A DNA stretch of 64,000 nt from Streptomyces sp. NBC_00536 (GTDB taxonomy: Bacteria > Actinomycetota > Actinomycetes > Streptomycetales > Streptomycetaceae), in contig NZ_CP107821.1 in NCBI RefSeq assembly GCF_036346295.1, positions 1 through 64,000 on the forward strand, written 5' to 3'. A program made the position numbers and the translations under genes. Of this stretch, positions 6,194 to 61,371 are shown piece by piece. The notes beneath the pieces were generated by a model. That model did not search any database. It was not told the origin of the DNA and saw nothing but the letters and a program-made list of their open reading frames with translations. Within the stretch, counting starts at the first letter, position 1. Every line of letters starts with the position of its first letter.

Positions 6194-6227
6194 ACTGTCC
6201 GGCTTCGAAGGGGCTAGCGTCTCGGCC
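6194..6227 (-). promoter_or_regulatory. Late-type promoter for the endolysin
   Basis: Minus strand: -35 box GGCCGAGACGCTAGC and -10 box GACAGT at the common spacing. The predicted start is near 6186, giving a 32-base leader with a ribosome site. The -35 box overlaps the terS stop codon. Confidence 0.6.
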
Positions 6228-6830
6228 TCATTCGAGGTCGGGCACCTGGTCGTCTTCGTCGGGGTACTGGAGGGCGTGCAGGGTCTCAGCAAGGCGGGTG
6301 GCAAGGTCAGCGGCCGGGCCGGTGTGCTCGACGGCCACGGGACCGCCTGCTGCGCCGGTCAGCTCGACCTCCAGGTGATCCTCCTTGCCGTACTGCTTGC
6401 GGTGTTGACGCTCCAGGTACCAGGCCGCCGCGCGCCAGTCCGGAGGCGTGGTGATGGTCTCCTCCAACACCTTTCCGGAGTGCGGATCGAACGTACGGTG
6501 CGTGGTGACGATGCCCCCGCGGCTGGCCCTGCGAATGTCGAGGGCGGCAGAGAGCGCAGCGGCCGCGCGGGCGCGTTCGACCTTCTCGAAGAACTCCACG
6601 AAGACATCAAGCTCCGGGTCCGGGTCCTTGCCTGCCGACCGGTCCACAGCCTCGGTGCGGCCGTACGCCATCCACCGGAGGAATGTGGCCCGGCTGACGC
6701 CCGCGTTGACCGCCGCCAGGTCCACGGCCAGCCCCGCGCGGCTGGCATCGATCAGGCGCGCCTCGACGTCCGGCGTAAGCAGCCGGGCGCGCGGCGGGGC
6801 GTCTGTGCGGCGGACTTTGCGGCGGGGCAT
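6228..6830 (-). CDS. Terminase small subunit candidate
   Basis: A 200-residue DNA-packaging recognition protein by pattern. An N-terminal HTH (VDLAAVNAGVSRATFLRWMA) is followed by a dimerising helix (FFEKVERARAAAALSAALDI) and the WRAAAWYLERQHRKQYGK motif commonly seen in phage small terminases. A variable acidic tail follows. It would bind pac/cos DNA and hand it to the large subunit, which is not in the window and is expected beyond the right edge, upstream of the portal. Its start codon coincides with the predicted start of a late-type promoter and has no ribosome site, so a leaderless mRNA is likely. A general HTH protein is the alternative. Confidence 0.7.
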   Translation of the reverse strand: MPRRKVRRTDAPPRARLLTPDVEARLIDASRAGLAVDLAAVNAGVSRATFLRWMAYGRTEAVDRSAGKDPDPELDVFVEFFEKVERARAAAALSAALDIRRASRGGIVTTHRTFDPHSGKVLEETITTPPDWRAAAWYLERQHRKQYGKEDHLEVELTGAAGGPVAVEHTGPAADLATRLAETLHALQYPDEDDQVPDLE

Positions 6831-6837
6831 GGCGGGG

Positions 6838-6871
6838 ACCGTAGATCGTCTGGGGGACTAGCGTCCCGGGC
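6838..6871 (-). promoter_or_regulatory. Late-type promoter for terS, predicted leaderless
   Basis: Minus strand: -35 box GCCCGGGACGCTAGT, -10 box TACGGT. The predicted +1 is 6830, the A of the terS ATG. The -35 box overlaps the stop codon of the upstream ParB-like gene. Confidence 0.6.
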
Positions 6872-7490
6872 TGAACAGGTGTCCGCAGGCCGGACAGGAC
6901 ACGGAACCGGCCCGCTCGTTGTCGCCGCTGTCGCCGTATCCCTCCTCAAAGCCGTTTTCAACCAGGTCGCCCTTCGTCGGCGACTCGGAGCCATCGGGGC
7001 CCTGAGGGAGACCCTCGGGGTCCACCTGGCGCAGCAGTTCCTCCATCTCGTCGTCGGCGATACCGAGGGAGTCGAACAGCGCGGTGTCGGAGGTGACGAG
7101 GTCTTCAAGGATCTCGGCGAGGGGACCGGCCTCCCACCCGCCAGCCGATGCCAGGCGGTTCAGGAGGATGAGGACGGCGCGGGCCTGGCGGTCGCTCGTT
7201 GAGGACCACCCACGGGTGACGGGTACGAGCCACCCCCCGTCGTCATCCACGAGCAGGCCGCGGGGCACCGGTTCGCCGCGGGCCTGCATCTCGATCAGGG
7301 CCTTCCGGCGCCCGTGGCCAGCGATCGGGAGCCCGGTCCGCTCGTCCACCACCGGCGTCTCTATGAAGCCGTGGTCCTGGATCGAGGCGATGATGCGCTC
7401 GACCTCGTGCTTCTTGGGGTTGACGGGGTCGGGCGGCAGGTCGGTGAGCGGTATGTAGGTGATGAACCGAGGGGCTTGAAGGCCAGTCAC
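6858..7490 (-). CDS. ParB/sulfiredoxin-fold nuclease-like protein with C-terminal zinc-ribbon motif
   Basis: A 210-residue protein. Residues 10-65 match the ParB N-terminal/ParB-like nuclease domain: a start strand (YIPLTDLPPDPVNPKKH), SIQDHGFIETPVV, then GLPIAGHGRRKALIEM, the GHGRR motif that binds nucleotide in this fold. No ParB HTH follows. The C-terminus has CPACGHLF, half of a zinc-ribbon. I chose the GTG at 7490 because AGGAG lies 4-5 bases upstream. Phage proteins of this kind often sit next to terminase genes, as here (27 bases from terS), sometimes as DNA-modification or packaging accessories. It is distinct from the partition ParB at 29.7 kb. Confidence 0.8.
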   Translation of the reverse strand: MTGLQAPRFITYIPLTDLPPDPVNPKKHEVERIIASIQDHGFIETPVVDERTGLPIAGHGRRKALIEMQARGEPVPRGLLVDDDGGWLVPVTRGWSSTSDRQARAVLILLNRLASAGGWEAGPLAEILEDLVTSDTALFDSLGIADDEMEELLRQVDPEGLPQGPDGSESPTKGDLVENGFEEGYGDSGDNERAGSVSCPACGHLFSPGR

Positions 7491-7947: not shown

Positions 7948-8517
7948 ATGTCCGACCAGAACGGCACCCCTGCCGTCGACTACAGCGACCAGGCGCTGAG
8001 GGCTGCTGTGGCCTACCGCGTGAAGGCGCGGGTTGCCGCCATCTGCGACCCGCTGATCAAGGCGAACGCCGACTACATCAAGGGCACCAAGGGGCTGCGC
8101 AGCACCACGGCGGAGATGCCCGCGGGCGGCACCGAGGACAGGTCCGTCCCGATCGGCACGTTCACGCGCAGCGTGTCGAAGCCGAGCTTCTTCGTCGCCG
8201 ACGACCAGGCCGTCTTCGACTACGCCGACGAGCTGGGCGAGACAGACTTCGTCGTCCGGCCCAGTTTCGTCACCGCCCTGCTGGGTCGAGTTCAGTACGA
8301 CGCCAGGACCAACACGGTCATCGACCGCATCACCGGTGAGGTGGTCTCCGGCATCGGATACGACCCGGGCGGGGTCACCCTCAAGGTCAGCCCCTCCTGG
8401 GACACGGCGGGTGTCGAGGCCCTGGACTCCTACCTGGGCTTTATCGAGGAGATGCTCTCGAACCTGCCCGAGCTGACGGCCAGCGACTTCCACCGCAGCC
8501 TGGAGGCCGGACAGTGA
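7948..8517 (+). CDS. Hypothetical protein, 189 aa, first gene of the early operon
   Basis: I do not recognise the family. The product starts MSDQNGTPAVDYSDQALRAA. It has an N-terminal helix rich in Ala/Arg (VAYRVKARVAAICDPLIKAN), a central beta-rich part (SVSKPSFFVADDQAVFDYAD) and an acidic C-terminal helix (LDSYLGFIEEMLSNL). No membrane segment or catalytic motif is evident. The gene opens a tightly packed plus-strand operon and overlaps whiB by 4 bases (GTGA), so it is co-translated with a regulator and precedes replication genes. A DNA-metabolism or host-takeover role is plausible but unproven. Confidence 0.75.
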   Translation: MSDQNGTPAVDYSDQALRAAVAYRVKARVAAICDPLIKANADYIKGTKGLRSTTAEMPAGGTEDRSVPIGTFTRSVSKPSFFVADDQAVFDYADELGETDFVVRPSFVTALLGRVQYDARTNTVIDRITGEVVSGIGYDPGGVTLKVSPSWDTAGVEALDSYLGFIEEMLSNLPELTASDFHRSLEAGQ

Positions 8518-8819
8518 GCGTCCCCGTCTTCATGCGCGAAGCCCCCTGCTCGCGGATCGACCCCGAGCTGATGTTCCCGGCTCCGTCGGACCTCGCCAAG
8601 ATCGAAGAGGCCAAGAGCACCTGCGCCGAGTGCCCCTTCCAGATCGAGTGCCTGGAGTGGGCACTCGACCCGGCCAGCCGCTGCGACTTCGGCGTCTTCG
8701 GCGGCACCACCGAGGCCCAGCGCAAGGCACTGGTCAAGAAGCGGAAGCTCGGAAAGCCCCAGCGCCCGAACTACGGCCCCCGCCCGGCCGCCGACCGGCG
8801 CATACCCGCCTCCGTCTGA
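8514..8819 (+). CDS. WhiB-family iron-sulfur regulator
   Basis: A 101-residue Wbl protein, a 4Fe-4S transcription factor family found in actinobacteria and their phages. The four cluster cysteines are visible: C12 (APCSRIDPELMF), then CAECPFQIEC giving C37, C40 and C46 in the CxxCxxxxxC spacing. The turn GVFGGTTEAQRKAL corresponds to the conserved G(V/I)WGG with Trp replaced by Phe. A basic tail (KKRKLGKPQRPNYGPRP) follows for DNA binding. It starts at a GTG overlapping the upstream stop. Phage Wbl proteins can bind the host sigma factor and redirect transcription, so this is one candidate regulator of the phage programme. Confidence 0.93.
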   Translation: MSVPVFMREAPCSRIDPELMFPAPSDLAKIEEAKSTCAECPFQIECLEWALDPASRCDFGVFGGTTEAQRKALVKKRKLGKPQRPNYGPRPAADRRIPASV

Positions 8820-8889
8820 ACTTCCGCACGCCACGCCCCACCCCGCCCCCGTGGCGGGGCCCAGGGCGCACCTCATGCAAGGACCCCTC

Positions 8890-10157: not shown

Positions 10158-10185
10158 TCAGCCGTCCGAGAGGAGGACCGACGAT

Positions 10186-11001: not shown

Positions 11002-11129
11002 ATCCTCACGCCTGGGCGGACTAGCGGAGAACGGACATCGGCCAGGGGCCACGCGTGATCTAGGCTGTCCGGCAACCGGGCGTCCACGAGCAAGGGCGCA
11101 CCAGGTCAACGCTCCTGGAGGACATCACC

Positions 11130-12401: not shown

Positions 12402-12420
12402 CCTCCTTTCCCTCACCGCC

Positions 12421-12454: not shown

Positions 12455-12477
12455 CCGTCTTTCCGGCCCCGATTCGA

Positions 12478-15995: not shown

Positions 15996-16313
15996 TCAGG
16001 CCGTTGGAGCCTCCTTCGGGCTGGTGGCGGACTCGATCACCGGCGCGATGGAGGTCGGCTTCCACACGAGGTCGTAGGCGCTCTGCGAGGCGGCCAGGAC
16101 CGCGGCGAGCGTGGCGAGAGTGGGCAGGCCGTGCTGGAACTGCTCTGGACCGTCTACGTAGGCGACGGTCACGACACCGGCGATCAACGCCGTGACGACC
16201 GCGACGATCTTCTTTGCGCGCACCGACCACTGCGGGCGCTGCACGACGGCGGTGAGCAGCGGCAGCATGGAGCCGACGGCCGAGCCGGCGGCGATGGAGT
16301 CGAGTGTGGACAT
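15996..16313 (-). CDS. Holin candidate, small membrane protein
   Basis: A 105-residue protein from the ATG at 16313. Membrane segments are visible at about 33-52 (KKIVAVVTALIAGVVTVAYV) and 62-80 (LPTLATLAAVLAASQSAYDL), with a weaker hydrophobic N-terminus (SIAAGSAVGSMLPLLTAVV). The charged loop QRPQWSVRAKK and a polar C-terminal tail are typical of actinophage holins placed at the end of the tail module. It would form membrane lesions that release the endolysin encoded at 5-6 kb. A late-type promoter precedes it with a 29-base leader; the ribosome site is weak. It could be another small membrane protein. Confidence 0.65.
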   Translation of the reverse strand: MSTLDSIAAGSAVGSMLPLLTAVVQRPQWSVRAKKIVAVVTALIAGVVTVAYVDGPEQFQHGLPTLATLAAVLAASQSAYDLVWKPTSIAPVIESATSPKEAPTA

Positions 16314-16349
16314 GTTGGCGATCCCGTCTGTCGGTGGTAGGACGGCGGG

Positions 16350-16383
16350 ACTGTGCACCCGGCGGACCGCTTGCGTCCCGGGG
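16350..16383 (-). promoter_or_regulatory. Late-type promoter for the holin candidate
   Basis: Minus strand: -35 box CCCCGGGACGCAAGC, -10 box CACAGT; predicted start near 16342, leader 29 bases. Confidence 0.6.
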
Positions 16384-16390
16384 AGGCCAG

Positions 16391-16894
16391 CTACCGGTCG
16401 ACGTTCGCGACGTCCGCCGCGATCTCCTCCGGAGGCTCCGGGGCGGGACGGCCGAGGGCCTTCGCGACGAGGCCTCTCAGATCGCGGATGTAGTCGAGGG
16501 CAGCGGCCTTCCAGCGTCGGTCCTTGCGCTGCTCTTCCTGGAGCTGGCGGACCTCGCGCGTCAGCTCCAGCTGGCCAGCCTCCAGCATCGCAACCCGCTC
16601 GACGGTCTGTCCGTGCATGGTGCGCTCCTGGTCCAGGAGCACCTTCTGCTGGTCGAGCATCCCGCGCTGCTGATCGAGAAGGCTGGCGAACCCGTCGGTG
16701 ACGGTTCTCATGGCGGCCACGTAGGTCTGGCCCTCGGTGGCCTCAGCGGTGGCCTTGGCCTGGACGGCGGCGACGCGCTCGTCGGTGCTCGCCTTTCGGG
16801 TTACCTGGCGGTAGCTGAACCAGGCGCCGACGACGACGCCAGACATGGCGCAGAGCGGGGCGAGCGCGGGCGCCAGGGAAGCGAGCCAGTCCAC
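16391..16894 (-). CDS. Membrane-anchored coiled-coil protein in the lysis cluster
   Basis: A 167-residue protein from a GTG preceded by AGGAGGG. An N-terminal membrane segment (LAPALAPLCAMSGVVVGAWF) anchors a long coiled coil (about 60-135: LDQQRGMLDQQKVLLDQERT, LEAGQLELTREVRQLQEEQR). A Pro/Glu-rich tail follows. Proteins with one N-terminal membrane helix and a coiled coil are common beside holins in actinophages, where they may act as a second holin, pinholin partner or spanin-like factor. No lipobox is visible. Its upstream gap holds a late-type promoter copy 104 bases away. Confidence 0.65.
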   Translation of the reverse strand: MDWLASLAPALAPLCAMSGVVVGAWFSYRQVTRKASTDERVAAVQAKATAEATEGQTYVAAMRTVTDGFASLLDQQRGMLDQQKVLLDQERTMHGQTVERVAMLEAGQLELTREVRQLQEEQRKDRRWKAAALDYIRDLRGLVAKALGRPAPEPPEEIAADVANVDR

Positions 16895-16973
16895 GGCGCC
16901 CTCCTAGTGTCGATCGGATACGGGTGCGCGGGAGCCGGGCTTGTAGGCCTCGGCCTCGGCTCCCCGCAGTGCG

Positions 16974-17007
16974 CATGGTGAAGAAGGCACAGGCTTGCGT
17001 CGCGGCC
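16974..17007 (-). promoter_or_regulatory. Late-type promoter, weaker copy, upstream of the coiled-coil gene
   Basis: Minus strand: -35 box GGCCGCGACGCAAGC is an excellent match; the -10 region (ACCATG) is shifted by one base. The leader would be about 72 bases. Confidence 0.45.
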
Positions 17008-17017
17008 TATCGGGTTG

Positions 17018-21294: not shown

Positions 21295-21301
21295 GGCGCG
21301 G

Positions 21302-21335
21302 AGGATCGGCCGGCCCGGCGGCTTGCGTCCCGGCC
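21302..21335 (-). promoter_or_regulatory. Late-type promoter for the tail fibre, predicted leaderless
   Basis: Minus strand: -35 box GGCCGGGACGCAAGC, -10 box GATCCT; predicted +1 at 21294, the A of the ATG. Confidence 0.6.
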
Positions 21336-21350
21336 TGGCTGCGGGCGCGG

Positions 21351-22553: not shown

Positions 22554-22555
22554 GG

Positions 22556-23563: not shown

Positions 23564-23594
23564 GATCATTCTCCCTACGTTGCTGAGGGAGGGC

Positions 23595-23628
23595 ACTGTC
23601 ACGCATGACTCATGCTTCTGTCGCGGCC
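23595..23628 (-). promoter_or_regulatory. Late-type promoter for the minor tail genes
   Basis: Minus strand: -35 box GGCCGCGACAGAAGC, -10 box GACAGT, then GCCC as at the endolysin promoter; predicted start near 23587. Confidence 0.6.
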
Positions 23629-23651
23629 TCGCGCCAGGGGTCCTGCGGGGC

Positions 23652-29475: not shown

Positions 29476-29511
29476 GGGGGTGTTCCTCCCGGTGGGTGAC
29501 GAAGCCCCGGG

Positions 29512-29545
29512 AACGTAGAGAGCTCAGCGTGCTTGCGTCTCGGGC
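29512..29545 (-). promoter_or_regulatory. Late-type promoter for chaperone, tape measure and Dit
   Basis: Minus strand: -35 box TGCCCGAGACGCAAGC, -10 box TACGTT; predicted start near 29504, leader 29 bases. Confidence 0.6.
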
Positions 29546-29574
29546 AAGCAGGCGCCGCACGAGAAGCCGGCCCG

Positions 29575-32783: not shown

Positions 32784-32822
32784 GGCGGTGTACTCCTCGT
32801 GGCCAGGTGATAGGGCCGGGCC

Positions 32823-32856
32823 ACGATGGGGAGGGCGCCTACTTAGCGTCCCGGGC
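32823..32856 (-). promoter_or_regulatory. Late-type promoter for the major tail protein
   Basis: Minus strand: -35 box GCGCCCGGGACGCTAAG, -10 box CATCGT; predicted start near 32815, leader 32 bases. It overlaps the 3' end of the upstream gene. Confidence 0.6.
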
Positions 32857-33189
32857 GCCGAACGGCAGCGGGCAGGGATGGGCGGCGGGCTCACGACGGG
32901 CCTTCGCGAGCATCCGCAAGATCCGGACGAGCTGGGCTCGTTCCTCGATCGCCCTGCGGGTGCGGAGGCACTCGACGGGCGCGAAGGTCTCGGCTGGCAC
33001 GTAGTGGATGAGGGCCTTGACCGTGAGGTTCGTTTCGATCGTTGCCGGGCCCGCGAGCGTGTCGTCCGAGGCGCCGCCGTCGTCGAGCTGGAAGTCGGTG
33101 ACGGTTCCGATGGTCGTCCAGGCGCCGCTGTCGGTGGTGGGGGTGCCGACGGGAGCGAGGGACACGGTGGCGCGGCCGGTGAAGTTCAT
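32839..33189 (-). CDS. Hypothetical neck/tail protein, 116 aa
   Basis: MNFTGRATVSLAPVGTPTTD opens a product that starts at an ATG overlapping the previous stop by 4 bases (ATGA). The first 80 residues look like a small beta-sandwich (WTTIGTVTDFQLDDGGASDD, IETNLTVKALIHYVPAETFA), a fold typical of neck or tail-tube-associated proteins. The C-terminus is Arg-rich (RTRRAIEERAQLVRILRMLA). It lies between the tail terminator candidate and the major tail protein. I do not recognise a named family. Confidence 0.7.
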   Translation of the reverse strand: MNFTGRATVSLAPVGTPTTDSGAWTTIGTVTDFQLDDGGASDDTLAGPATIETNLTVKALIHYVPAETFAPVECLRTRRAIEERAQLVRILRMLAKARREPAAHPCPLPFGARDAK

Positions 33190-33876: not shown

Positions 33877-33883
33877 GGGGCGG

Positions 33884-33917
33884 AACAGTGCAGTACCAAG
33901 CGGCTTGTGTCGCGTGC
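33884..33917 (-). promoter_or_regulatory. Late-type promoter for the neck genes, predicted leaderless
   Basis: Minus strand: -35 box AGCACGCGACACAAGC; the -10 box CACTGT is one base off the common register. Predicted +1 at or next to 33876. Confidence 0.5.
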
Positions 33918-33928
33918 TGGCTCTGGGG

Positions 33929-37985: not shown

Positions 37986-38017
37986 AGTTCCTCCTGCCGT
38001 TCGGGGCGTGGGCGGTG

Positions 38018-38051
38018 ACTGTGGCGCGCCCAGGAGGCTTGCGTCGCGCCG
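38018..38051 (-). promoter_or_regulatory. Late-type promoter for the connector unit
   Basis: Minus strand: -35 box CGGCGCGACGCAAGC, -10 box CACAGT; predicted start near 38010, leader 25 bases. Confidence 0.6.
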
Positions 38052-38097
38052 TTGCCGCCCACTCGGGCAGCAACGGCGCGCGGTGCCGCAGCAGGGA

Positions 38098-38580: not shown

Positions 38581-38611
38581 GGGGACTCTCCTTCTCGATG
38601 TCGGGGTGCGC

Positions 38612-38645
38612 AGGGTGCAGGACGTGGCGGGCTTGGGTCGCGGTC
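38612..38645 (-). promoter_or_regulatory. Late-type promoter for the decoration protein
   Basis: Minus strand: -35 box TGACCGCGACCCAAGC, -10 box CACCCT; predicted start near 38604. Confidence 0.5.
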
Positions 38646-39891
38646 AGAGGATGCGGAGGTCGTCCCACCCGTCCGCGGTGACGGAGAAGACGAGCAGGCC
38701 CGGCTGGGAGACCTCGCCGGACCGCATGGCGTACCAGTCGGATCCGTTGTCGAGGGTGGGTGCCTGAACCCAGAGGCGGCCGGCGCCGAGCTGCTGCGCG
38801 CGGAAGTGGTGGAAATGGCCGGAGACCAGGATCTTGGCGTCGGCGATGGGCTGGCGCCCGAAGCTCTGGCCCTTCCACCAGTCCGCGGCCTTCTCCGGCC
38901 GGGCGTACTGGTGCCCGTGATTCAGGCCGACGATGGTCCCGGCCATGTCGAGCGAGACGGAGTCCCGCCACGGCTCTGGAGTGACGAAGCTGACGTGTCC
39001 GTACGCGTCGGTGTTGCGGGCGTAGGCGTCGGCGATCTGGGACATGACCTCGATGCCCCAGTCGTCTTCCGGCGGCCCTACCGCGTCCTTGCCCCTTCTG
39101 ACGCGGGCATGATTGCTGCCGCAGGTGGCGGCGACGACGCGGGGGAAGGCGGTGGCGAGGCGGTCCAGGCCCTCGAAGGTGAGCCGCCGATGGACCCTGA
39201 TCTGCTGGGTGAGGGTCAGGTCGTTGGTGAAGGCCTGCGCAGCCACGTTCTCGAATCCCTCGACGCAGTCGCCGGCGTCGAGCCAATACGCCGAGTCCGG
39301 GGCACGCCCGATCTTGCCGAGGTCGCGCAGGTGGTCTTCGAGCCGGTCGAATCGCTCGGCGACCCGCCCGACGAGTTCCTTGGTGCCGCCGTCCCGCCCG
39401 ACCTTGCCGGCCTGCGGGTCGGCGTACACGACGGCGAGCGCGCGTGCGGCCCGCTCGGGAGCTGTGCGCGGCCGACGGCGGCGCCGCATCACGTCACGGA
39501 TCAAGGTGTTGAGGTCTTCGGCGGAGGCCCAGCCGGGCTTCGTGGGCTCGATGAGGTAGCGGCAACGCCACACGGGGCGGGTGACGGCGTCCTCGCCCTG
39601 GGCGTCGCGGTGCCAGGCCGCGGGGTCGTGGCGGGCCTCCACGAGACGGACGCGGTAGCCGTCCGGTACGGCCAGGCCCAGCTCTTCGACGCGGGCGCGC
39701 CAGCCGCCTTCGTCCTGCGGTGGGGTGTCGGCGGCGGGGGCAGTGACGAGCATGCTGCCGCCGGGCTCGTACCGGACACCGGGCTCCCAGCCCTTGGGAG
39801 CCGTGGCGGCGGGGCGGGTTGTTTCCGGCGGCACGGTCTGTGCGGGGGACGCGGGGGCGAGCAGTGCGTCGAGGTGGTCGGCGAGGCTCAT
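38644..39891 (-). CDS. Calcineurin-like metallophosphoesterase
   Basis: A 415-residue enzyme-like protein; the ATG at 39891 overlaps the upstream stop (ATGA). Metal-site motifs appear in order: VVYADPQAGKVG (DxQ variant of block I), YWLDAGDCVEGF at about 200-211 (GDxxE type), ATCGSNHARVRRGK at about 258-270 (GNH variant), LNHGHQYARP and LVSGHFHHFRA (GHxH) near 357. It is therefore a likely phosphodiesterase or phosphatase acting on nucleic acid or nucleotides. It is paired with a small HTH gene between the capsid and decoration genes, a pairing also seen in other actinophages. The substrate is unknown; DNA repair, tail-end processing or defence evasion are possible. Confidence 0.85.
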   Translation of the reverse strand: MSLADHLDALLAPASPAQTVPPETTRPAATAPKGWEPGVRYEPGGSMLVTAPAADTPPQDEGGWRARVEELGLAVPDGYRVRLVEARHDPAAWHRDAQGEDAVTRPVWRCRYLIEPTKPGWASAEDLNTLIRDVMRRRRRPRTAPERAARALAVVYADPQAGKVGRDGGTKELVGRVAERFDRLEDHLRDLGKIGRAPDSAYWLDAGDCVEGFENVAAQAFTNDLTLTQQIRVHRRLTFEGLDRLATAFPRVVAATCGSNHARVRRGKDAVGPPEDDWGIEVMSQIADAYARNTDAYGHVSFVTPEPWRDSVSLDMAGTIVGLNHGHQYARPEKAADWWKGQSFGRQPIADAKILVSGHFHHFRAQQLGAGRLWVQAPTLDNGSDWYAMRSGEVSQPGLLVFSVTADGWDDLRIL

Positions 39892-41557: not shown

Positions 41558-41574
41558 GGTGGGAATGCACTCTC

Positions 41575-41608
41575 CTGTGCTGGATGGGCGATGGCGTGCG
41601 TCGCTCGC
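41575..41608 (-). promoter_or_regulatory. Late-type motif upstream of the capsid gene, weak copy
   Basis: Minus strand GGCGAGCGACGCACG resembles the -35 box, but its predicted start would fall inside or past the ribosome site. It may be a relic or a second binding site. Confidence 0.3.
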
Positions 41609-41642
41609 CCGGCCAGCACCGGGACGCCTCAACGCGAGGCGT

Positions 41643-41676
41643 ATGCAATGGGAGTCGAGGGTCTAACGTCTCGGGC
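41643..41676 (-). promoter_or_regulatory. Late-type promoter for the capsid unit
   Basis: Minus strand: -35 box GAGCCCGAGACGTTAGA is an excellent match; the -10 region (TTGCAT) is poorer. The predicted leader is about 78 bases. Confidence 0.45.
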
Positions 41677-41724
41677 TCCCGGGCACGAAAGGATCTGCGC
41701 CCGGGAGTGCGATGTTTATGCAGG

Positions 41725-43758: not shown

Positions 43759-43794
43759 GGTGGGTTCCTCCTGGCGGACGTCTCGGCGGTCCGC

Positions 43795-43828
43795 ACCGTG
43801 CCCCCACGGACCGGCTAGTGTCCTGTGC
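43795..43828 (-). promoter_or_regulatory. Late-type promoter for the protease fusion
   Basis: Minus strand: GACACTAGC is a diverged -35 box, but the -10 box CACGGT sits at exactly the common spacing. Predicted start near 43787, leader 29 bases with AGGAGG. Confidence 0.5.
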
Positions 43829-43864
43829 TCCCCACGCCGTGGGCTTCCCCGAGCCCGAGCCCGA

Positions 43865-44491: not shown

Positions 44492-44497
44492 GGGCGG

Positions 44498-44531
44498 AAG
44501 ATCCGGGCCAGAGACGCCTAACGTCTCGGGC
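44498..44531 (-). promoter_or_regulatory. Late-type promoter for the acidic protein, predicted leaderless
   Basis: Minus strand: -35 box AGCCCGAGACGTTAGG, -10 box GATCTT; predicted +1 at 44490/44491, the first base of the GTG. The -35 box also forms GAGACG-CCTAA-CGTCTC, which may be an operator. Confidence 0.6.
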
Positions 44532-44574
44532 TGATCCCCTGCCGCGGCTGCGGCTCGCTCGCTACTCTCGACGC

Positions 44575-54500: not shown

Positions 54501-57500
54501 ATGACGGTCGGTGGCCGGCTGTCGCGCGGGTCGTTCTGTCCCTGACGAAGTACGGCGAGGGCGGCGGTGGCCAGGGCCTTGGAGGCCTCGTCGCGCTTGG
54601 TGAAGTCGGTGTTCCCGATCGTGGCGTTGAAGTCGTCGCCACGGGTGTTCTTCTTCCGCTTCACGACGTCCTGGAGCTGGGCGACGAGCTGGTCGGTCGC
54701 CTTGCTCAGCCGCTCGGTGGCCTGGATCGTGGACTTGTAGCCCTCAATCGTCCGCTCGTGGCCCTTGAGCTTGCGCTTGAGGATCGCGAGGGAGGCCTTG
54801 ACGTTCGCCTGCTCCAGCAGGTGCGGGTTGCCGGTGGAGATTGCGGTGACCTGCTCGGCGTTGAACACGCCGTCGGGGATGTCCTCGACGGTGCGGTCGG
54901 TGAGGTTGCCCTTCATGAGCTGGCGGATGAACTTCGCCTTGCGGGCGACGGTCTGCCAGGAGAAGCCGTCGAAGGACTGCTCGGTGACGTACTGGAAGAT
55001 CGCCACCTCGGGGTTCATGTTGCCCTGGCGGATGATGCGGCCATTGCGCTGTTCGAGGTCGGCGGGCCGCCACGGGCAGTCGAGGTGGTGCAGTGCCGTC
55101 GCGCGGAGCTGGACGTTGGTTCCCGTGCCCATCTTCGCGGTGCTGCCGACGAGCACGGCGATCTTGCCGGTCCGGGCGTCATGGAACAGGCGCGCCTTCT
55201 CCGCGTCGTTCTTGGCCTCGTGGATGAAGCGGACCTTGTCGGCCGGAACGCCCCGCTCGACCAGCAGCTCCTTCAGTTCCTGGTAGGCGGGGAACGGGGA
55301 CTCGGCCAGCTCGTCCATGCTGGCCGGGCTGTCGCCCTTCTTCCCCTTCTTCTTGGCCTTGCCCGGGTCCTTGGGCGTGCCCATGTCCAGGAAGACGATC
55401 TGAAGGCCGCCGGGCGTACCGTGCGGGGTCGGGTTGTTCTTCGAGGTCGGGTAGACCGCGTCCTTCGTGTCCTCGTAGATCCGCCGGATGTTATCGGCGG
55501 CCGTGGAGAGCTTGAGGCCCTTCTCGTCCAGGCCGACCATCCGCGGGTCGAGAGAAACCTTTCTGCCGTCCGAGCTGATCTTGAGCATGTTGTCGACGCG
55601 CGGGTCGATGTCGCCGCCCTTGACGGCGCGGGCCCGCGCGGCGAGCTGGTCCTGGTAGGCGAGCATCTGCTCCGTCGGCTCGACGGAGATCGTGATGGCC
55701 TTGCCGCTGGCGACGTCGGGGGTGTCGAGGTACTCGGCGAGGTCGTCGCTGTTCTTGACGTCCGCGACCGTCTTCCAGATCCGCAGCAGCTCGGGCATGT
55801 TGCGGAAGGCCGCGAACCGGGAGACCTCCTTGAATCCGGAGCCGTCCGCGGCAAGCTCGACGCCCGAGACGATCTTTCCGTAGGTGGAGGCGAACTCGTC
55901 GAAGTCGCGGACCCTGGCGGCTTCCAGGAGGTCGGGCCGCAGGTAGCGCAGCATGGTGTGCGCCTCGGTCACGCTGTTGGAGATCGGCGTGGCGGTGGCG
56001 AAGGTGACGACGCGGCCCGACTTGGTGTTCCTGCGCAGGTACTCCAGCTTCATGTCGAGGTCGGAGGCCCTGTTGGAGCCCTCGATCCCGGCGCCGGGGA
56101 TCCCGGAGTTCGTGGAGAGGTTCTTGTAGTGGTGGGCCTCGTCCACGACCACGTAGTCGATGCCGGTGTCCTCGAAGTACAGGCCGGCGGTGTCCTTCGA
56201 GGCCTCGATCTTCGCGGTGATCTTCGCTTCGAGCTTGCGGAGCCGGTTCTGGATCTCCTTGACCATCCGGGAGTCCGTACGGACACCCGGCTTGTCGGCC
56301 TGGTCCTGCTCCTTCTGCCGCTCCAGCGCCCGCTTGAGGGCCTTGGCCTCGCGCTTGATGTATTCGAGCTGGACCTCGGGTCGCATCGGGATGGACTCGA
56401 AGGCGTTCTGGGTGAGGATCACCGCGTCGTAGTCGCCGGTGGCGACCCGGGCGATGAACTCGCGGCGCTTGCGGCCCTGGAGGTCTTCGCTGGACGCGGA
56501 CAGGATGCGGCCGTTGGCCGCGGACTCCGGGTACAGCTCCGCGAACTCGTCGGTGAACTGCTGAAGCATGTGGTTCGGGACGACCATGGCGGCCTTGTTG
56601 ATCAGGCCCAGGCGCCGGAGCTCCATCACGCCCATGGTCATCTCGGCCGTCTTGCCTGCGCCGACCTCGTGGGCCAGCAGGACGGCCGGTTCGTTGACCA
56701 TCCGCGCTACGGCGGCGTGCTGATGGGGGTGCGGCTTGAACCACTCGGCCAGGCCCGGCATCGTCCGGCGCTGCCCGTCGTACGAGCGGAGAGCCAGGTT
56801 GTTGTGCGTGTAGTTGTAGGCCCGCTTGATGGCGTCGGAGCGCTCAGGGGTAGCCCACAGCCAGTCCTGGAACTCCTCCCGCATCTCGTCGGCTTTGGTC
56901 TGCGCGGCGGCGGTGGCTTCCTCGTCCAGGTAGGTCTTGCCGCTCTCGTCCTGGTAGGTGACGCGGATGCGGCCGTTGGTCAGGATGGTCTCGGCGAGCT
57001 TGACCGCATTGAAGCCGGGCACGCCCCAGACCTGCTGCGCGACCCTGCCCTTCTTGATGCTGTCGGGGGCGTCCACCTTCCACAGCGAGCCGCCCTGGTA
57101 GCTGACGGTGACCAGGTTGGTGTTGAGTCGCTCGCGGAGGAACTGCTGCACGGGGCCGGCGCCGAGCCAGGACGCGCCCAGGGGCGCGTCGATCTCGCCG
57201 GGGGAGATGTCCGGCGGCAGGACGGCTTCGAGCTGCTTTACGTTGATCTCGAAGCGGGCGTCCTCGCCGGCGAGGGCCTGGGCCTCCTCCAGCCGCTTGC
57301 GGACGTTGCCCGACAGGTAGTCGGCGGCCGGGATGAGGTCGCCGCCATTGTGGGGCTCGAAGACGAGCGGGTACTCCTGGCCGGTGTCCGGGTCGACGGA
57401 GCGCGCGGCCAGGAGCTTCTCCCGGGCCGCTTCCGGACTGAGGCCCATGACCTTGCCCAGGGCCTCGCCGTTGAGGGTGGGGTGCTGCTCCATGACGATC

Positions 57501-60500
57501 GCCATGGCGTCTTCGGGCGAGCTGGCCCGCTCCGCGATGGAGCGGTGCTTGGCCTGCCGCTTGGTGAAGATCGCTGCGGGGGTGCTCGTGCCGGTGTTCG
57601 CGTCGAAGGAGTCCAGCGACAGCAGGATCGCCATCGTCGGGTCCTTGGTGAGCAGGCCGCCCATCGGAGGGCGCTTGCGGTACGCCTTCTCCACGGCCGC
57701 GCCGGTCTCCGGGTCCGTGGACTTCCGCTTGGCCCACTCGAACCGGTTCAGCGACCCGAACTTGGCGTGGTACTTGTCGTAGCGGGCCTTCAGGTCCCCG
57801 CGGAGCGTCTCGATGAGCTGCTCGTCGGCGTCCGCCCGGCCTTCCTCGGCGACCAGGGCCTTGAACGAGTCGCGCAGGCCCAGGAGCTGGCGCGCCTCCT
57901 CCGCCTGGGTGCTCGGCACGTCGTAGGGGCGGATCATGCCGTCGCGAACCTGCGTGAACGTGCCGTCGGGGGCGACCTCTACGTGCCCGTCGATGCGGTT
58001 GGACCCCTCGGGCAGCAGCTCGACCTTGCGGCGCTCACCGGTCTCCGGGGTGTACGACAGCCCGGAAGCCTTTGCCCGGCTGACTGCCTTCTTGAGGGCC
58101 TTGTCGAGGGAGGCGTCCAGGTCACCATCGCCGACGACGCGCAGCTCGCCCGGCCCGTACATGCCGTGGCCGACTTCCATCTCGCCGAGCACGTTCTGCG
58201 GGTTGTCCAGGAAGTACGGGTTGACGTGGACGTCCGGCGCGAGGAGCTTCTCGGCCTCATCGTCCGGCTGGCCGGGGAGGTCTTCGACCTTCACCGAGTG
58301 GACCCAGACCGGCGGGTCGTCCTTCTTGCGCTGCTCGGGCGGCTTCACCTCGCCGTTCCGCAGGCGGCCCGACGTGTACTCCTTGTCCTTCTCCCGGCGC
58401 CGGAAGATGAGCAGGTCGGTGACCACGTCGGTGCCGGCCGTGCGACGGTGCGCGCCGGTAGGCAGGCGGATCGCGCCGACCAGGTCGGCCTTACGGGCCA
58501 TCTCCATGCGGGCGTCTTCGGCACGGGGCGTCGAGCCGTCCATGGTGTAGCGGGAGGTGACGACGGCGACCAGGCCGCCGGGGCGGGTCAAATCCAGGGA
58601 CTTCAGGATGAAGTGGTTGTGGATGTTGTGGCCGCCCTTGTTGTGGCGGAGGTCCACGACCTGGTAGTCGCCGAAGGGGACATTTCCGATGGTGAGGTCG
58701 AACGTGCCGTCGGCGGCCCGGGTCTTCTCGAAGCCCTCATTGCGGACGTCCGCCTGCGGGTAGAGCGCCTTCGCGATGCCCGCGGTGATCGGGTCCAGCT
58801 CGATGCCGGTCATGTGCGCGCCCTCAGGCGCGTGACCGATGAAGTTGCCGGAACCGCTGCCCGGCTCCAGCACGTTGCCGCCGTCAAAGCCGAGCTCGCG
58901 CACGGCCTTCCACACGGCCTGCACCATGGACGGGTCGGTGTAGTGGGCGTTGAGGGTGTTGCCCTCGGCGGCTTCCCACTCGTCGTCGGTGAGAAGGGCG
59001 CGGAGCTTCTTCTGGAGCGGCTCGAACTCCGGCTTCGGGTTCGGGACGAAGACCTGCGGGGTCGCGCCCCAGCCCGACCAACGGGCCAGGGTCTCCTGCT
59101 CGGCGGCGGTCGCGGGCCGGTTCTCGGTCTCCAGTCGGCGCAGGACTTCGATGGCGGCGATGTTCGCCTTGACGCGAGCGGCCACGCCGGAGGGGACGAG
59201 ACTGCGCCCGTCCTCCGGCGGCTGGAACTGCGGGGCGGTCTGTTCCTGCTCGCGGGAGCCGAAACCTACACGGCTGCGATCCTCGGCAGGCTCACCCTCG
59301 GCATCTCCAGATCCTCGGTCCCCGGCTCCTTCTCCAGGCTGTACACCATCTCGTGCAGCGCCTTCTCCCGCGCCCGCATCGTCGCCATGTTCACGCTGCC
59401 CATCGCCTCCCGGAAGTCCATCCCCGGAGCCGTCTCCTCCCGGAAGCCGTCCCGGTACTCCGCGATCAGCTCCTCGATCTCCGCGCTGATCTGCGCGAAG
59501 AACGTCTCCGGCGGCGTCGTCTCCGCCAGCTCGGCCAGCGCCTCCGGCCGGTACGTCGTCCAGAACGCCTTCACCAGCGCCTTGTACCCGCTCACCCTGC
59601 TCCTCCTGGTTGTCGCGCGGCTGGCCGGCGGCCTGCTGCGGGGTCACATCATCACTCGGCGCGGGGGCGCCCGCACTGTCCCGGGTGCCTTCGCGCTCTT
59701 CCGTACCGGCGGCAGGCGCGGGCCTGCCGAACCGTGCGGCCTGGCTGTCGTTCATGCCGCGCTCGCGGTCGAACTGGCCGGCGAGCAGCCAGATCGCAAC
59801 GTTGGAGGGCTGCCCGTCCTTGTCACGGAAGGCGGCCAGCTCCTTCGCCACGTCCGGGCTGCCCCAGTCCAGGGTCCGGCCGTCTCCATCGCGAAGGTTG
59901 CTGCCCAGGTAGAGGGCGAAGCGGTCCGCGGTCTCCTGGTCGGGGAAGTTGCCGTAGCGGCCGAGGCGGTGGGGACCCAGCCCGGACATGCGGCGCCCAG
60001 AACCGGCCGTCATCACGGTGAAGCGCCAGTCGTCGCTGCGGCTGGTGTCCTCCACGATGGCGAAGCCGTGGTGACTGGCCAGGTGAATCCGCAGTTTCGG
60101 ATCGTTCGCCATGCGGCGCAGTGCCTCGGCCTGCGCCTTCTCGGTGTCCTCCCCAGCGGGGTTCTGGTCGCCGCCGCGCTTCCAGAACTCGCGGAGCTCC
60201 TCGGAGTTGCGGGGGCGGCCGCGCTCGTCGCCGGCCGCCTGCTTCGGGCCGACGTGGCCTACGGCGACGTTCCCGGCCGGGGCGCCGGTGCGCTCGGTGA
60301 CCTGCCGTGCGGCCTGTGCCTCCGGGGACGGCGAAGTTGCGGGCTTCGTCCTGGCGGTGGCCCCCTCGCGCTTCTTGGCGGCCCGCTCGGCGAACGCCTG
60401 CGAAGACTCCTTGGCCAGGCGCCCGGCCATGGCCCGGCCTTCGGGGGTGGCGAGGCGCTTGAAGGAGTCGGGGTTGTTCCAGTCGATCGGTTCGCCGTCG

Positions 60501-61330
60501 AGCTGGGCGTCCTCGATCCGGTTGGCGAAGTCCGCGGCCTCTGCCTTGCGTGCCGTCAGGGTCAGGCGGATGCCGGTGTCCGTGTGTATGACGCCCCAGC
60601 CGGACTGCTCGCGGCCGTTCTTCCGGATCGTCATGCGGCCGACGACAAAGTGGCCATTGCGGCTGAGCTGCGGCTTTTCGAGCTCGTCAATCAGCCCGGC
60701 CATGCGCTGGTTGTGCGAGGCCTGAGCCTTCTCGTCATCGGTGGACGGACGGAGCTTGCCGCTGGCCCAGTGCGCGCGGACGTCCTCCAGCGTCTTGAAG
60801 CGGCGCTTCGGGTCGCGGCGGGCCCGCTTGGGCGCGGGCTGCTGCTCGTCAGGCTCGTCGTCGTCCGGCTCGGGCCCGGCACCGTGGTCCTCGCCGTCGG
60901 CGTCGTCCCCGATGCCGTTGCCCTCGTCGTCCTGGGCGTGGGGGTCGTCGGGGGTGTCGCCCTGGTCACCGGCGTCCTCGGCGTCCTGGCCGGTGCCGCG
61001 CCGGCCGTCCGCCTGGCGGCGCTCGTCCTCGTCGCGGACCTTCTTCTTGCTCCGAGTCGGGGCGGTGCCGTCGGGGCGGGCAACCATCGTCAGCCGGGAT
61101 GCGTGGATATTCGACCGCTCGTGGGTGCTCAGGTTCTCCACGAGTACCTGGCGGCCGCCCAGGGAGCGCAGCACGCGCGCCATGCCGCCACCCCAGAGAC
61201 GGGCGATGCCGCCCGTCTCGATGAAGCGCCCCTTGCTGTCGCGGGGATGCAGATCCGCGTTCCAGGGACGACGGGCCCGCTTGGCTTCGAGGCGGGCGGC
61301 GATACGGTCAGCGGCGTTCGTGATCTGCAT
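45587..61330 (-). CDS. Giant polyvalent protein: DNA methylase plus SF2 helicase, virion-associated type
   Basis: About 5247 residues in one open frame. The start RDSKGRFIETGG, common in phage internal proteins, is followed by two Trp-rich modules. A DNA adenine methylase domain has VLEPGSGSGNFIGH (about 825) and LTIGNVPFGDYQVV (about 885, the NPPF motif as NVPF). An SF2 helicase has LLAHEVGAGKTAEMTMG (about 1557), VVVDEAHHYKNL (about 1732), FATATPISNS and QRNGRIIRQGN (about 2100). A third Trp-rich module, several SH3-like barrels (PGSVVTDADGREGVVTGANA), a membrane-active segment near 4840 (ARIVAGLVLLAQKLIALIAA) and a degenerate protease-like end follow. This resembles P1 DarB-type injected antirestriction proteins. 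ATG 61330 is chosen because a late promoter predicts +1 there; GTG 61348 and ATG 61342 are alternatives. Confidence 0.9.
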   Translation of the reverse strand: MQITNAADRIAARLEAKRARRPWNADLHPRDSKGRFIETGGIARLWGGGMARVLRSLGGRQVLVENLSTHERSNIHASRLTMVARPDGTAPTRSKKKVRDEDERRQADGRRGTGQDAEDAGDQGDTPDDPHAQDDEGNGIGDDADGEDHGAGPEPDDDEPDEQQPAPKRARRDPKRRFKTLEDVRAHWASGKLRPSTDDEKAQASHNQRMAGLIDELEKPQLSRNGHFVVGRMTIRKNGREQSGWGVIHTDTGIRLTLTARKAEAADFANRIEDAQLDGEPIDWNNPDSFKRLATPEGRAMAGRLAKESSQAFAERAAKKREGATARTKPATSPSPEAQAARQVTERTGAPAGNVAVGHVGPKQAAGDERGRPRNSEELREFWKRGGDQNPAGEDTEKAQAEALRRMANDPKLRIHLASHHGFAIVEDTSRSDDWRFTVMTAGSGRRMSGLGPHRLGRYGNFPDQETADRFALYLGSNLRDGDGRTLDWGSPDVAKELAAFRDKDGQPSNVAIWLLAGQFDRERGMNDSQAARFGRPAPAAGTEEREGTRDSAGAPAPSDDVTPQQAAGQPRDNQEEQGERVQGAGEGVLDDVPAGGAGRAGGDDAAGDVLRADQRGDRGADRGVPGRLPGGDGSGDGLPGGDGQREHGDDAGAGEGAARDGVQPGEGAGDRGSGDAEGEPAEDRSRVGFGSREQEQTAPQFQPPEDGRSLVPSGVAARVKANIAAIEVLRRLETENRPATAAEQETLARWSGWGATPQVFVPNPKPEFEPLQKKLRALLTDDEWEAAEGNTLNAHYTDPSMVQAVWKAVRELGFDGGNVLEPGSGSGNFIGHAPEGAHMTGIELDPITAGIAKALYPQADVRNEGFEKTRAADGTFDLTIGNVPFGDYQVVDLRHNKGGHNIHNHFILKSLDLTRPGGLVAVVTSRYTMDGSTPRAEDARMEMARKADLVGAIRLPTGAHRRTAGTDVVTDLLIFRRREKDKEYTSGRLRNGEVKPPEQRKKDDPPVWVHSVKVEDLPGQPDDEAEKLLAPDVHVNPYFLDNPQNVLGEMEVGHGMYGPGELRVVGDGDLDASLDKALKKAVSRAKASGLSYTPETGERRKVELLPEGSNRIDGHVEVAPDGTFTQVRDGMIRPYDVPSTQAEEARQLLGLRDSFKALVAEEGRADADEQLIETLRGDLKARYDKYHAKFGSLNRFEWAKRKSTDPETGAAVEKAYRKRPPMGGLLTKDPTMAILLSLDSFDANTGTSTPAAIFTKRQAKHRSIAERASSPEDAMAIVMEQHPTLNGEALGKVMGLSPEAAREKLLAARSVDPDTGQEYPLVFEPHNGGDLIPAADYLSGNVRKRLEEAQALAGEDARFEINVKQLEAVLPPDISPGEIDAPLGASWLGAGPVQQFLRERLNTNLVTVSYQGGSLWKVDAPDSIKKGRVAQQVWGVPGFNAVKLAETILTNGRIRVTYQDESGKTYLDEEATAAAQTKADEMREEFQDWLWATPERSDAIKRAYNYTHNNLALRSYDGQRRTMPGLAEWFKPHPHQHAAVARMVNEPAVLLAHEVGAGKTAEMTMGVMELRRLGLINKAAMVVPNHMLQQFTDEFAELYPESAANGRILSASSEDLQGRKRREFIARVATGDYDAVILTQNAFESIPMRPEVQLEYIKREAKALKRALERQKEQDQADKPGVRTDSRMVKEIQNRLRKLEAKITAKIEASKDTAGLYFEDTGIDYVVVDEAHHYKNLSTNSGIPGAGIEGSNRASDLDMKLEYLRRNTKSGRVVTFATATPISNSVTEAHTMLRYLRPDLLEAARVRDFDEFASTYGKIVSGVELAADGSGFKEVSRFAAFRNMPELLRIWKTVADVKNSDDLAEYLDTPDVASGKAITISVEPTEQMLAYQDQLAARARAVKGGDIDPRVDNMLKISSDGRKVSLDPRMVGLDEKGLKLSTAADNIRRIYEDTKDAVYPTSKNNPTPHGTPGGLQIVFLDMGTPKDPGKAKKKGKKGDSPASMDELAESPFPAYQELKELLVERGVPADKVRFIHEAKNDAEKARLFHDARTGKIAVLVGSTAKMGTGTNVQLRATALHHLDCPWRPADLEQRNGRIIRQGNMNPEVAIFQYVTEQSFDGFSWQTVARKAKFIRQLMKGNLTDRTVEDIPDGVFNAEQVTAISTGNPHLLEQANVKASLAILKRKLKGHERTIEGYKSTIQATERLSKATDQLVAQLQDVVKRKKNTRGDDFNATIGNTDFTKRDEASKALATAALAVLRQGQNDPRDSRPPTVIGRVGGIEVTAKYRMSWDNHGRVHQVDISIPDVPQSRHTYTEEDLRTESNLRITRLEDSLADVEKKIVRAQSHLRQEERAAATARERVKRPFEQAAELEAAERRSKLVSAIIREQSRQVSSPEAGKEKAARLEQLEHQLREARIAAGEDSGDIDDPAAAQDTDLLPRTPAPPSISTDEKGRPRILWPDAEAKKAAKEREKREKVQRAREERGETVLDPEQVSSELAALREEEPSAPDAGQPEQDAGEPSVSAVDQPDQDAGQTAEEEPQAGSNALVDLHAELHTVDAAETRLHKTGIETWGTGDRVPDGIKLIRRAVLDAVAAMNDGEYDTTERRLLDARESIELLRDSFDDDEQAVEAPLRELADAIDAYLPKHRDKRDSLPAPASDATDGKDSESEVTLDPEQVRADLDGLTRETAPDNGKTSEPAQSEPDGVPAADGTEESSSTGQADDAAEQPADAGDAPADAAQPEETPTPTPEPDAEGESTDQPSSPSESDRGALNDALATDSKADGEDVELLDPEQVSAGDYVRVQTQNTAGNPVVRSGFLLAEPKQVTASRDRKRIKAWRLYIGAEGESPSPRNAVTILLDGKVERMPAPAPALLSGGEDEGEQHTNTLGWKGAEDERERVGEHNGKPLEVGELHMRGNQVERVVYLDGKPIGRLNDANGSWRAYDQEGGSVADRFFSGSGGQWDHGRYVQPDPTRDAAVAIATAHESGARPKIRFLHSADQIPQAEAERLMASHLDPRLRPRWDVSDTERGRARVYVDDNWAGDIKGKRDQWQVVGEDGKPSGTVYPTKDAAAQALAKDSPLLNIARGPSFHFPAHPREVSEDRLNRWIEESERWLAEDAPDLPDTAHTPHWVRKNLEALKKHREQRADAHARDRESLGGEERINALVARAELHETDRSQPNADSEEFRVRADGEDVGGIHRFGGFWQAYASNRRQSDFYDRDQAIAFLVSNHDERDAERHNSDTADDSVSRDQEVGQQEPQAEAENQEEDRDGQAPRRRQNGGDGGDGGEGPPNTPDAHPPGENAGDDRRDGQGSGENQPQDRRREQQRRRRDRDRRKPDAAGGDPGGGQPPAPRLPKDDRDRDRNNHGESSSSGDLDGPGRLKTLLARYRSGDVPAPQGADPERHAEYLRQLASNDSLNLSPDGNLITWTNTGATWRFGVAANGLHLEGWEAPGDQIGGREGARLLAGEYERLRDENGDGINWAQPQLDAEALRQWRDSRGEPLTDAIDFVRDSFIRARTQQDGPDHTGSGIEESAESPDSPGAAAGTDSDASAVPTVGSAAGEAAAAENEGLGNDVDTSQERSAESGGVGGDSPAATARPEGDGGQSPAPEQKRETNDGAPSGDPELDLRPFWGPNEGGYGNVVSNEGAIRRFGSLERMQELTARATLPGPALPTDHGHEVWLDGRLLGSINDLDIYNRTLYPESYEPKWQVVPQFFPTFQEPIYRSREAAIAEMVLRGLKDGPPDTSRVTKEMASDFDRWHDMFFPKSLPAGDFTDEEVERYEALDGLLRALGAGRTVSGDVADDVATAIDELRWLEDRYNKPQDENVHISPRALERSLAKTLDHLRPEDPRAAHHRENQYRAAMQALADLITDDVLDQSEEVPVGELLDGDVVVRLSGVRASTGSMVTSTGYLRGMPRKVTLKRGGVKTRAYRVRVGQTPWEDGGREETITVPVDAMVFRRANLSDVEIREEQLRYGVAVGERAPEHRYDPDTDGIDYEGRARTQAQQAESVVETSNTGEAAALPDAGDETPDAPDVPEPAAASGEGRTSSDTAEPAVERPARPADTSPSAGRPEAEEGPAGDDAAPEPDAEPEPVDGRPAEWVKVSELGISDLVRIEGITKTGTPRTLAGYVVDGPKEITTVQARRVQGMYRVLIAETPDGRGKRESVWVMPDATAARATRDDNDRVQGAPETGAEADIRAGRISERVPTDRSGQGLFPGSVVTDADGREGVVTGANANSARVQFGDDRSDDTHSPTSLNVTDGGAARPSGWTADGHLVRPGNVVGDRNGNMLGTVEDVDGDTATVATPQGMEDRPATDLRVLGGLKDVDSGQPAKVGRLERVPVTDINKGDSIIVDGPDGMTTVEVTGKEEVSPTHTRITAVDTTSGELHSLDGGADATYMRALDAEGRPVRLGPEDAPDSQGEITSRELAPAVDPVDGPTVEPQLSPEERNAIADRGEAPTDSPDAQQAAARIANDLPVTAEQASALAEELRDGADTATPEGRAAQRAADHLDAAAGNDVEEAGTPEPGTVGTVGVGDTIALPGEFDRDTMAAYRVVQIQDVPGGVRVLTIEDEDGMRFKRSLTASDPLYQLPEPEAPTDDPDAEPRDPNPGPDTDQLRADYADAVVRAVIDNAIEGTNTPGSIHQLREQIAQQLTPESLRASMRQARNGALAAITNTGVEGDQHDELVRSLRPEASRARTDAIRAALRTVDDLEPLDGESEEDTARRAADLLRLIPEALRSRPDSAPDDGQSPVDEAVTQHADEAVGEALQAAASGGPLTDERRAAIVAQLAERMAATRAATAERIAANVPAGRRPGVLARIVAGLVLLAQKLIALIAAFLKALAKLWRSGRAGLRRVRERISRFRRGLMQRVRSWPETRRLRRLAAAADLPEHADGLPLGDRVAHWARLLPAPGRFGQVSRRARWYRPTTRSSLAAGQLPPVQDGVRWTAERAVDGGPGPQTLRHLAALRAAGQDVDQDVVARLAAAAPELGDDPHGTVRHATDYAESAERRLRDLEAAAAGGAPDADLEIAATRVEAQSARQEAARLQQSYAAALPGAVRDSIAEVREVGPGTTASLVTTPDSDPGAVRALTDVSQFIPRDWLSPTEARFIGARSGDAGGYDPDSRIATVADLGDGGRRAAAHALLAHLQQHYPDLLAAQEAFHFTRTHSGRTGARRRTSLDALLARLFRGRTEQGGTGDLVALGLGTLFSGSWYEDDDLRAFLLGLLATR
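59266..59595 (-). CDS. Nested gene in an alternative frame of the giant gene, 109 aa
   Basis: A GTG start lies 6 bases after AGGAGGAG. MSGYKALVKAFWTTYRPEAL, ETFFAQISAEIEELIAEYRD and NMATMRAREKALHEMVYSLE form a normal helical protein with Trp, Phe, Tyr, Met and Lys. G/C third positions follow this frame across all 330 bases. The giant frame over the same bases reads only a Gly/Asp/Arg/Ala linker. So this is probably a true small gene overprinted on a linker of the giant gene, or a separate gene between two genes that happen to share a frame. The function is not recognised. Confidence 0.65.
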   Translation of the reverse strand: MSGYKALVKAFWTTYRPEALAELAETTPPETFFAQISAEIEELIAEYRDGFREETAPGMDFREAMGSVNMATMRAREKALHEMVYSLEKEPGTEDLEMPRVSLPRIAAV

Positions 61331-61337
61331 GCGGCGG

Positions 61338-61371
61338 ACCATGCACACCGCAGGGGGTTAACGTCGCGGGC
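61338..61371 (-). promoter_or_regulatory. Late-type promoter for the giant gene, predicted leaderless
   Basis: Minus strand: -35 box GAGCCCGCGACGTTAAC, -10 box CATGGT; predicted +1 at 61330, the A of an in-frame ATG. Confidence 0.6.

Follow-up and report, generated by a model that had tools for sequence, protein, structure and literature searches.

Phages T4 and SPO1 encode late sigma factors (gp55 in the former, gp28 and gp33-34 in the latter) that have late promoters of their own and are not known to be of the BldN-like ECF type. Promoters of the housekeeping HrdB enzyme consist of TTGACA and TANNNT hexamers about 18 bp apart. The BldN promoter is written as CGTAAC-N16-CGTTGA, and also as CGTAA-N18,19-GTT (PMC2375139). 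Closest to the DNA studied here is the Streptomyces phage Gilgamesh, a member of the same family, whose gene 92 is annotated as an RNA polymerase sigma factor and which carries 20 sites of the type described below; promoters are not listed in its deposited annotation for positions 1-100000 of 129,136. A search of open-licence PMC papers found no description of this late promoter, in agreement with the earlier note, which knew of none.

The stretch analysed, hereafter the window, is the first 64,000 nucleotides of contig C3 (132,597 bp) of Streptomyces sp. NBC_00536, whose genome totals 9.15 Mb with a chromosome of 8.66 Mb. Seven near relatives, of 125-132 kb, are Gilgamesh and plasmids carried by six Streptomyces strains; the eight elements share genes for head, tail, packaging and lysis and form one phage-plasmid family. 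The best explanation for the sites collected in Table 1 is that this family of Streptomyces phage-plasmids, of about 124-137 kb, is the one whose late promoters they are, and it is probable that these promoters are read by the ECF sigma factor that the element itself encodes (1869-2585). We infer both that the sites are transcription starts and that this sigma factor is their reader. It would bind the host core RNA polymerase, and the sigma-bound enzyme would read both boxes of the promoter, so that the genes for packaging, head, tail and lysis would be turned on at the same time; transcription would begin 7-8 nt past the last T of the -10 box, and about one third of the late genes would yield leaderless mRNAs. 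As in T4 and SPO1, a phage sigma factor is accompanied by one promoter class found ahead of many late genes, here as judged by sequence alone; unlike those systems, the present family has an ECF sigma factor, a GC-rich bipartite promoter and many apparently leaderless genes. Such a system would give this phage-plasmid family a well-defined late regulon, along with a sigma-promoter pair that can be put to the test, and the pair could serve as an orthogonal expression tool.

Table 1. Candidate sigma operon and putative late promoters of the window; ortholog counts are relatives with an upstream site at the 12-bit threshold
Feature	Positions	Strand	Remarks
ECF sigma factor, proposed late sigma	1869..2585	+	regions 2 and 4; in 7/7 relatives
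Small protein, frame overlapping the sigma gene's end	2563..2946	+	possible anti-sigma by position only
Third gene of the sigma operon	3009..4613	+	
Putative promoter, lysin (5105-6154)	6192..6228	-	30.2 bits; 7/7 orthologs
Putative promoter, terminase small subunit (6228-6830), predicted leaderless	6836..6872	-	ATG 8 nt past -10 T; 2/7 orthologs
Putative promoter, small hypothetical protein (15996-16313)	16348..16384	-	5/7 orthologs
Putative promoter, 16391-16894 (membrane protein by Gilgamesh annotation)	16972..17008	-	-10 one base nearer; 6/7 orthologs
Putative promoter, tail protein (17398-21294), predicted leaderless	21300..21336	-	6/7 orthologs
Putative promoter, 22556-23563	23593..23629	-	6/7 orthologs
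Putative promoter, tail assembly chaperone (28951-29475; name from Gilgamesh ortholog)	29510..29546	-	7/7 orthologs
Putative promoter, major tail protein (32190-32783)	32821..32857	-	7/7 orthologs
Putative promoter, 33631-33876, predicted leaderless	33882..33918	-	-10 one base nearer; 5/7 orthologs
Putative promoter, 37500-37985	38016..38052	-	6/7 orthologs
Putative promoter, 38098-38580	38610..38646	-	5/7 orthologs
Late-type -35 with atypical -10, major capsid gene (40259-41557)	41641..41677	-	7/7 orthologs, 13.7-22.1 bits
Putative promoter, 41725-43758	43793..43829	-	5/5 orthologs
Putative promoter, 43865-44491, predicted leaderless (GTG)	44496..44532	-	3/3 orthologs
Putative promoter, giant gene (45587-61330), predicted leaderless	61336..61372	-	ATG at 61330 taken as start

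Motif, spacing and predicted start sites

The 15 GACG or GACA cores with -35 boxes that the earlier note had listed were all found on the minus strand. The motif does precede late genes, as that note had claimed; the genes concerned include those for capsid, major tail protein and tail chaperone, for lysin and the terminase subunits, and the giant gene. A weight matrix was built from the 15 aligned sites, using a -35 block (index 2-18) and a -10 block (index 31-37), and was scored out of sample. Information is high at GAC and at the A that lies four bases beyond it, as well as at the A and T of the -10 (index 32 and 36), both of which are exactly in register in 12 of the 15 sites. Sites 33908 and 16998 (CACCAT) fit once the -10 is moved one base nearer, the latter having been named as an exception previously; 41667, at the major capsid gene, has no -10 of this kind. 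The consensus reads AGSVCGCGACRYWARCC-N12-GCACnGTSC, with a conserved upstream block of about 15 bp. Leave-one-out scores, which are not expression levels, lie at 12-28 bits for 14 sites and at 3.9 for the capsid site 41667. There the -35 is kept and the -10 A is missing, likewise in the relatives with a listed capsid site (TCCAATGC in several of them), and this promoter may perhaps be a weaker or differently controlled start. Together with capsid, the lysin, tail chaperone and major tail genes have an upstream site in every one of the seven relatives.

With the window-trained matrix, the two boxes at fixed spacing are enriched over shuffles; the -35 consensus alone (at most three mismatches) is not enriched, with 81 matches vs 79.35 in shuffles. 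Application of the matrix to the whole element and its relatives, as proposed earlier, extended the class. In the remainder of C3 (64001-132597), seven new matches of at least 14 bits were obtained, as against an average of 0.25 and no more than 1 in 20 shuffles; one of the seven lies ahead of the gene for the large terminase (core 99295) and another on the plus strand (81829). The seven relatives contain 134 matches at this threshold, 15-21 each; 30 column-permuted matrices averaged 4.9 (maximum 17), and five shuffled sets 4.4. Among 281 matches to the -35 block only, in 12 relatives, the best -10 lies at the stated spacing in 149; it is one base closer in 28 cases, one base further away in 8 and elsewhere in 28, and 68 matches have none. 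A strict two-box pattern has eight matches in the whole 9.15-Mb genome, seven of them in C3. When 142 sites of at least 16 bits were collected from eight elements, the core was outside called genes in 122 and a start codon followed within 100 nt in 125. The two-box motif is, on the strength of its sequence and layout, a promoter class.

The relation of the sites to start codons is consistent with this. A larger set, with a threshold of 15 bits, was drawn from 13 elements: C3 (training sites included), its seven relatives, four further elements whose sigma belongs to the same clade as the window's, and a distant cousin (G403), in which matching structural proteins are 26-59% identical, the sigma gene is present and 13 promoter sites occur. 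Of its 232 sites, 225 lie on the major strand of their element. An ATG or GTG stands exactly 7-8 nt past the -10 in 78 of them (index 43 in 22, index 44 in 56), in columns that the matrix does not score, while the other 18 offsets between index 37 and 56 have 0-3 start codons each; all 78 frames are open for at least 40 codons, and the proportion without C3 is 70 of 210. Since the start codon falls at exactly this distance in about one third of the sites, these genes appear to lack leaders and fix the position of the start: the transcription start could be inferred to within one base, and the predicted starts fall about 32 bases past the GACG core, where the earlier note had put them. Leaderless late genes in a GC-rich host would offer a handle on translation in such phages. 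Among the 142 sites above, the called start, which is approximate as genes were called with our own codon-usage script, lies at 7-9 nt in 23, at 31-56 nt, as would suit a leader that includes a ribosome site, in 64 and beyond 60 nt in 40. In 12 it lies before the end of the -10, mostly at the giant gene, where the start had been set 12 nt too far up.

This giant gene, of about 5,250 codons and leaderless by the present analysis, is preceded by CATGGTCCGC..CATG in six of the seven relatives and by CATCGTCCGCGCATG in W06. Its start is deposited as the ATG 12 nt further up in Gilgamesh and as the ATG used here in NBC_01278. In two relatives, the corresponding gene bears the annotation 'DEAD/DEAH helicase family protein'.

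The element's sigma factor as candidate reader

The earlier note had concluded that a dedicated factor is implied, and the protein encoded at 1869-2585 emerges as the best candidate. In its longer reading, Pfam recognises Sigma70_r2 at residues 69-126 and Sigma70_r4 at 169-217, region 3 not being listed, and the score against TIGR02937 is 81.1 bits for a cut-off of 42.9; with regions 2 and 4 and no region 3, it is an ECF (group 4) sigma factor. Besides all seven relatives, the gene is present in 43 of 59 further loci fetched from genome and viral collections via the neighbouring ParB-like gene, some of which are the same contig twice; the other 16 end 1.5-4.1 kb past the ParB-like gene, short of the place of the sigma gene. 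Its position is therefore constant in all family loci long enough to include it. Across 20 shared or neighbouring proteins, it is also the only conserved transcription factor that Pfam recognises.

Several comparisons connect this protein to BldN. The nearest solved structure is 6dxo, which we take to be BldN, and the protein ranks second only to BldN among the 39 TIGR02952 matches of its own genome, with a score of 103-104 bits that leaves it outside the BldN family proper (cut-off 206 bits). In a tree, one group (99/99) unites the phage sigmas with BldN and two further ECF sigmas of the host, and separates them from the remaining host sigmas included; within it, the three phage clades receive no support as a group of their own. 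The promoters show a parallel: the late motif, CRYWA-N19-GT, agrees in layout to within one base with CGTAA-N18,19-GTT, one of the forms given for BldN (PMC2375139). In contrast to the BldN promoter, that of the phage carries an additional conserved block upstream (AGnnCGCGA) and a -10 A, and lacks GTTGA; it is like CGTAAC-N16-CGTTGA in layout and not in sequence. The resemblance in layout is suggestive of a BldN-like phage sigma factor as reader, and it brings the motif nearer to the BldN type than to the TTGACA/TANNNT type with which it had earlier been compared.

Several observations count against the sigma factor as reader. Its 49 distinct sequences group into three clusters (36, 10 and 3), and the proteins are only about 30-45% identical between clades, yet the promoter is nearly unchanged. 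The lack of a supported group of phage sigmas in the tree also counts against it, as do the phages with BldN-like sigmas that lack the motif and the plasmid leader element, both described below. Co-variation of promoter and recognition helix was considered as evidence and set aside, as the clade differences, at index 4, 5 and 8, are small and inconsistent: G395 has the C3-type recognition helix, yet mostly C at index 8.

Each of the 51 sigma genes examined is followed by an overlapping open reading frame of 124-142 codons, which in most elements covers the last 17-23 nt or so of the sigma gene. In the window this is 2563-2946, in which profile, Pfam, PDB and fold searches recognise no family or fold, absence from the fold lists excluding nothing, and whose alignment to one RsbN sequence with hhalign is not significant. 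Its predicted structure has three helices followed by a hairpin and one more helix (pLDDT 78, pTM 0.33). Relatives number 160 among 7,995 candidates scored; the 120 of them that were listed have no Pfam domain, and those with a name are nearly all called 'hypothetical protein'. The position of its gene allows the guess that it could be the anti-sigma factor of 1869-2585.

Other candidate readers

It is unlikely, but the first alternative to weigh, that the promoters are read by a sigma factor of the host, whether an ECF sigma of the BldN/ShbA clade or some other, and that the element's own sigma has a different task, for instance acting on other genes. Promoters of this type occur on plasmids and chromosome ends where the family sigma was not found, and the best host match on the phage sigma profile (129-132 bits), presumably BldN, exceeds the distant phage sigmas (100-115 bits). 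Against this, 400 kb sampled from the 8.66-Mb host chromosome contain no site of at least 14 bits and three of at least 12. Host BldN was rejected as reader: 12 of the host's 17 BldN-type candidate promoters were scored, and all gave negative values on the matrix (-4 to -36). At four RpoD-type sigma loci, presumably including hrdB, a reported ShbA target, the best score on either strand is 6.5.

The distribution of the promoter argues in the same direction. A strict pattern of the Gilgamesh type, which does not match the window's own element, gave 18 matches in 11 of 392 Streptomyces genomes and none in the other 381 (the reversed-pattern control had no match at all); 13 of the 18 are in the phage-plasmid family, one is beside family remnants and four are in the plasmid leader element described below. 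In 2.9 million viral contigs it matched 48 stretches, all with proteins of the family. For comparison, 9 of the 392 genomes, the window's own counted, contain the capsid gene (query 40259-41632) at an identity of at least 65%. Short loci around capsid genes 65-68% identical have the motif in 8 of 8 cases, and those around capsids about 30% identical in 0 of 21 at 16 bits (two at 13.1 bits). Separately, three phage contigs of about 53 kb (G399, G400 and G401; loci L238-L240) have BldN-like sigmas and are without this promoter; two of these sigmas are sister to host BldN in the tree (96/88). A de novo motif search in these contigs was dominated by the GC-rich background.

Somewhat less probable still is recognition of the -10 by the housekeeping HrdB enzyme, with an activator encoded by the element sitting over the -35 and making up for the contact that is missing there. 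A start at index 43 would put the -10 A and T where the housekeeping sigma needs them, the GAC of the motif coincides with that of TTGACA, and the upstream block of some 15 bp is long for contact by a single sigma factor. However, no TT precedes GAC, and the family-wide -10, CACnGTSC, has C as its first position in 63-87% of sites and T in 9-24%, depending on the clade, with its C, G and C conserved too. The late promoters are therefore not of the HrdB type; a plain housekeeping promoter was rejected on these grounds, and the earlier description of the -10 as a housekeeping box short of its first T becomes doubtful. Among the 20 shared or neighbouring proteins scanned, the sigma factor is the sole regulator recognised by Pfam. 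The ParB-like protein at 6858-7490, shown by PHROGs, is a possible activator, and a helix-turn-helix match below the Pfam cut-off lies at C3 99875-100945. WhiB, which had been suggested for this role, was discarded because the gene (PF02467) is in none of the seven relatives with the same promoters; C3 itself has a WhiB-family gene, placed at 8514-8819 or, in a shorter extent, at 8535-8732.

Finally, it is very improbable that the boxes are other binding sites (for packaging, partition or a repressor) that chance to precede late genes: the promoter reading is drawn from sequence, which leaves room for such sites, but the fixed two-box spacing and the start codons at 7-8 nt are what a transcription start demands, and the orientation follows the genes.

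The leader element on plasmids

A conserved element of about 350 bp was encountered on Streptomyces plasmids and chromosome ends, consisting of a promoter of the phage-late type, a leader frame and a gene for a small hypothetical protein. It is located at L323:4144, L322:1415 and 11150, L320/L321 (the G270 chromosome end), L324:12418 and L357-L363, and 23 plasmid records match it. The late-type promoter precedes the leader in 20 of 27 copies examined, three of these 20 having served as seeds, and no site is present in the other seven. Four loci with the leader gave no Rfam hit at the gathering score.

The family sigma was not found in seven leader-bearing plasmid records, where the best match has 49 bits and four records have none. 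In nine leader-bearing genomes, the best match to the phage sigma profile is the presumed BldN (129-132 bits) mentioned above, with one further sigma match of 116 bits in G087 and nothing at 190-272 bits, the range of the family's main sigmas. Either the leader promoters answer to the sigma factor of the phage, or both they and the phage promoters are read by something in the host. It is a speculative and rather unlikely possibility that the element is a phage alarm, in which a copied late promoter lets the sigma factor of an incoming phage switch on a plasmid gene for defence or for travelling with the phage; if the leader does answer to the phage sigma, plasmids would have a way of sensing phage development. 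The leader frame has 63-164 codons and begins MTSRQTPGAxPAPIAATLNTP, and its neighbours include Shedu, SIR2, relaxase and helicase genes.
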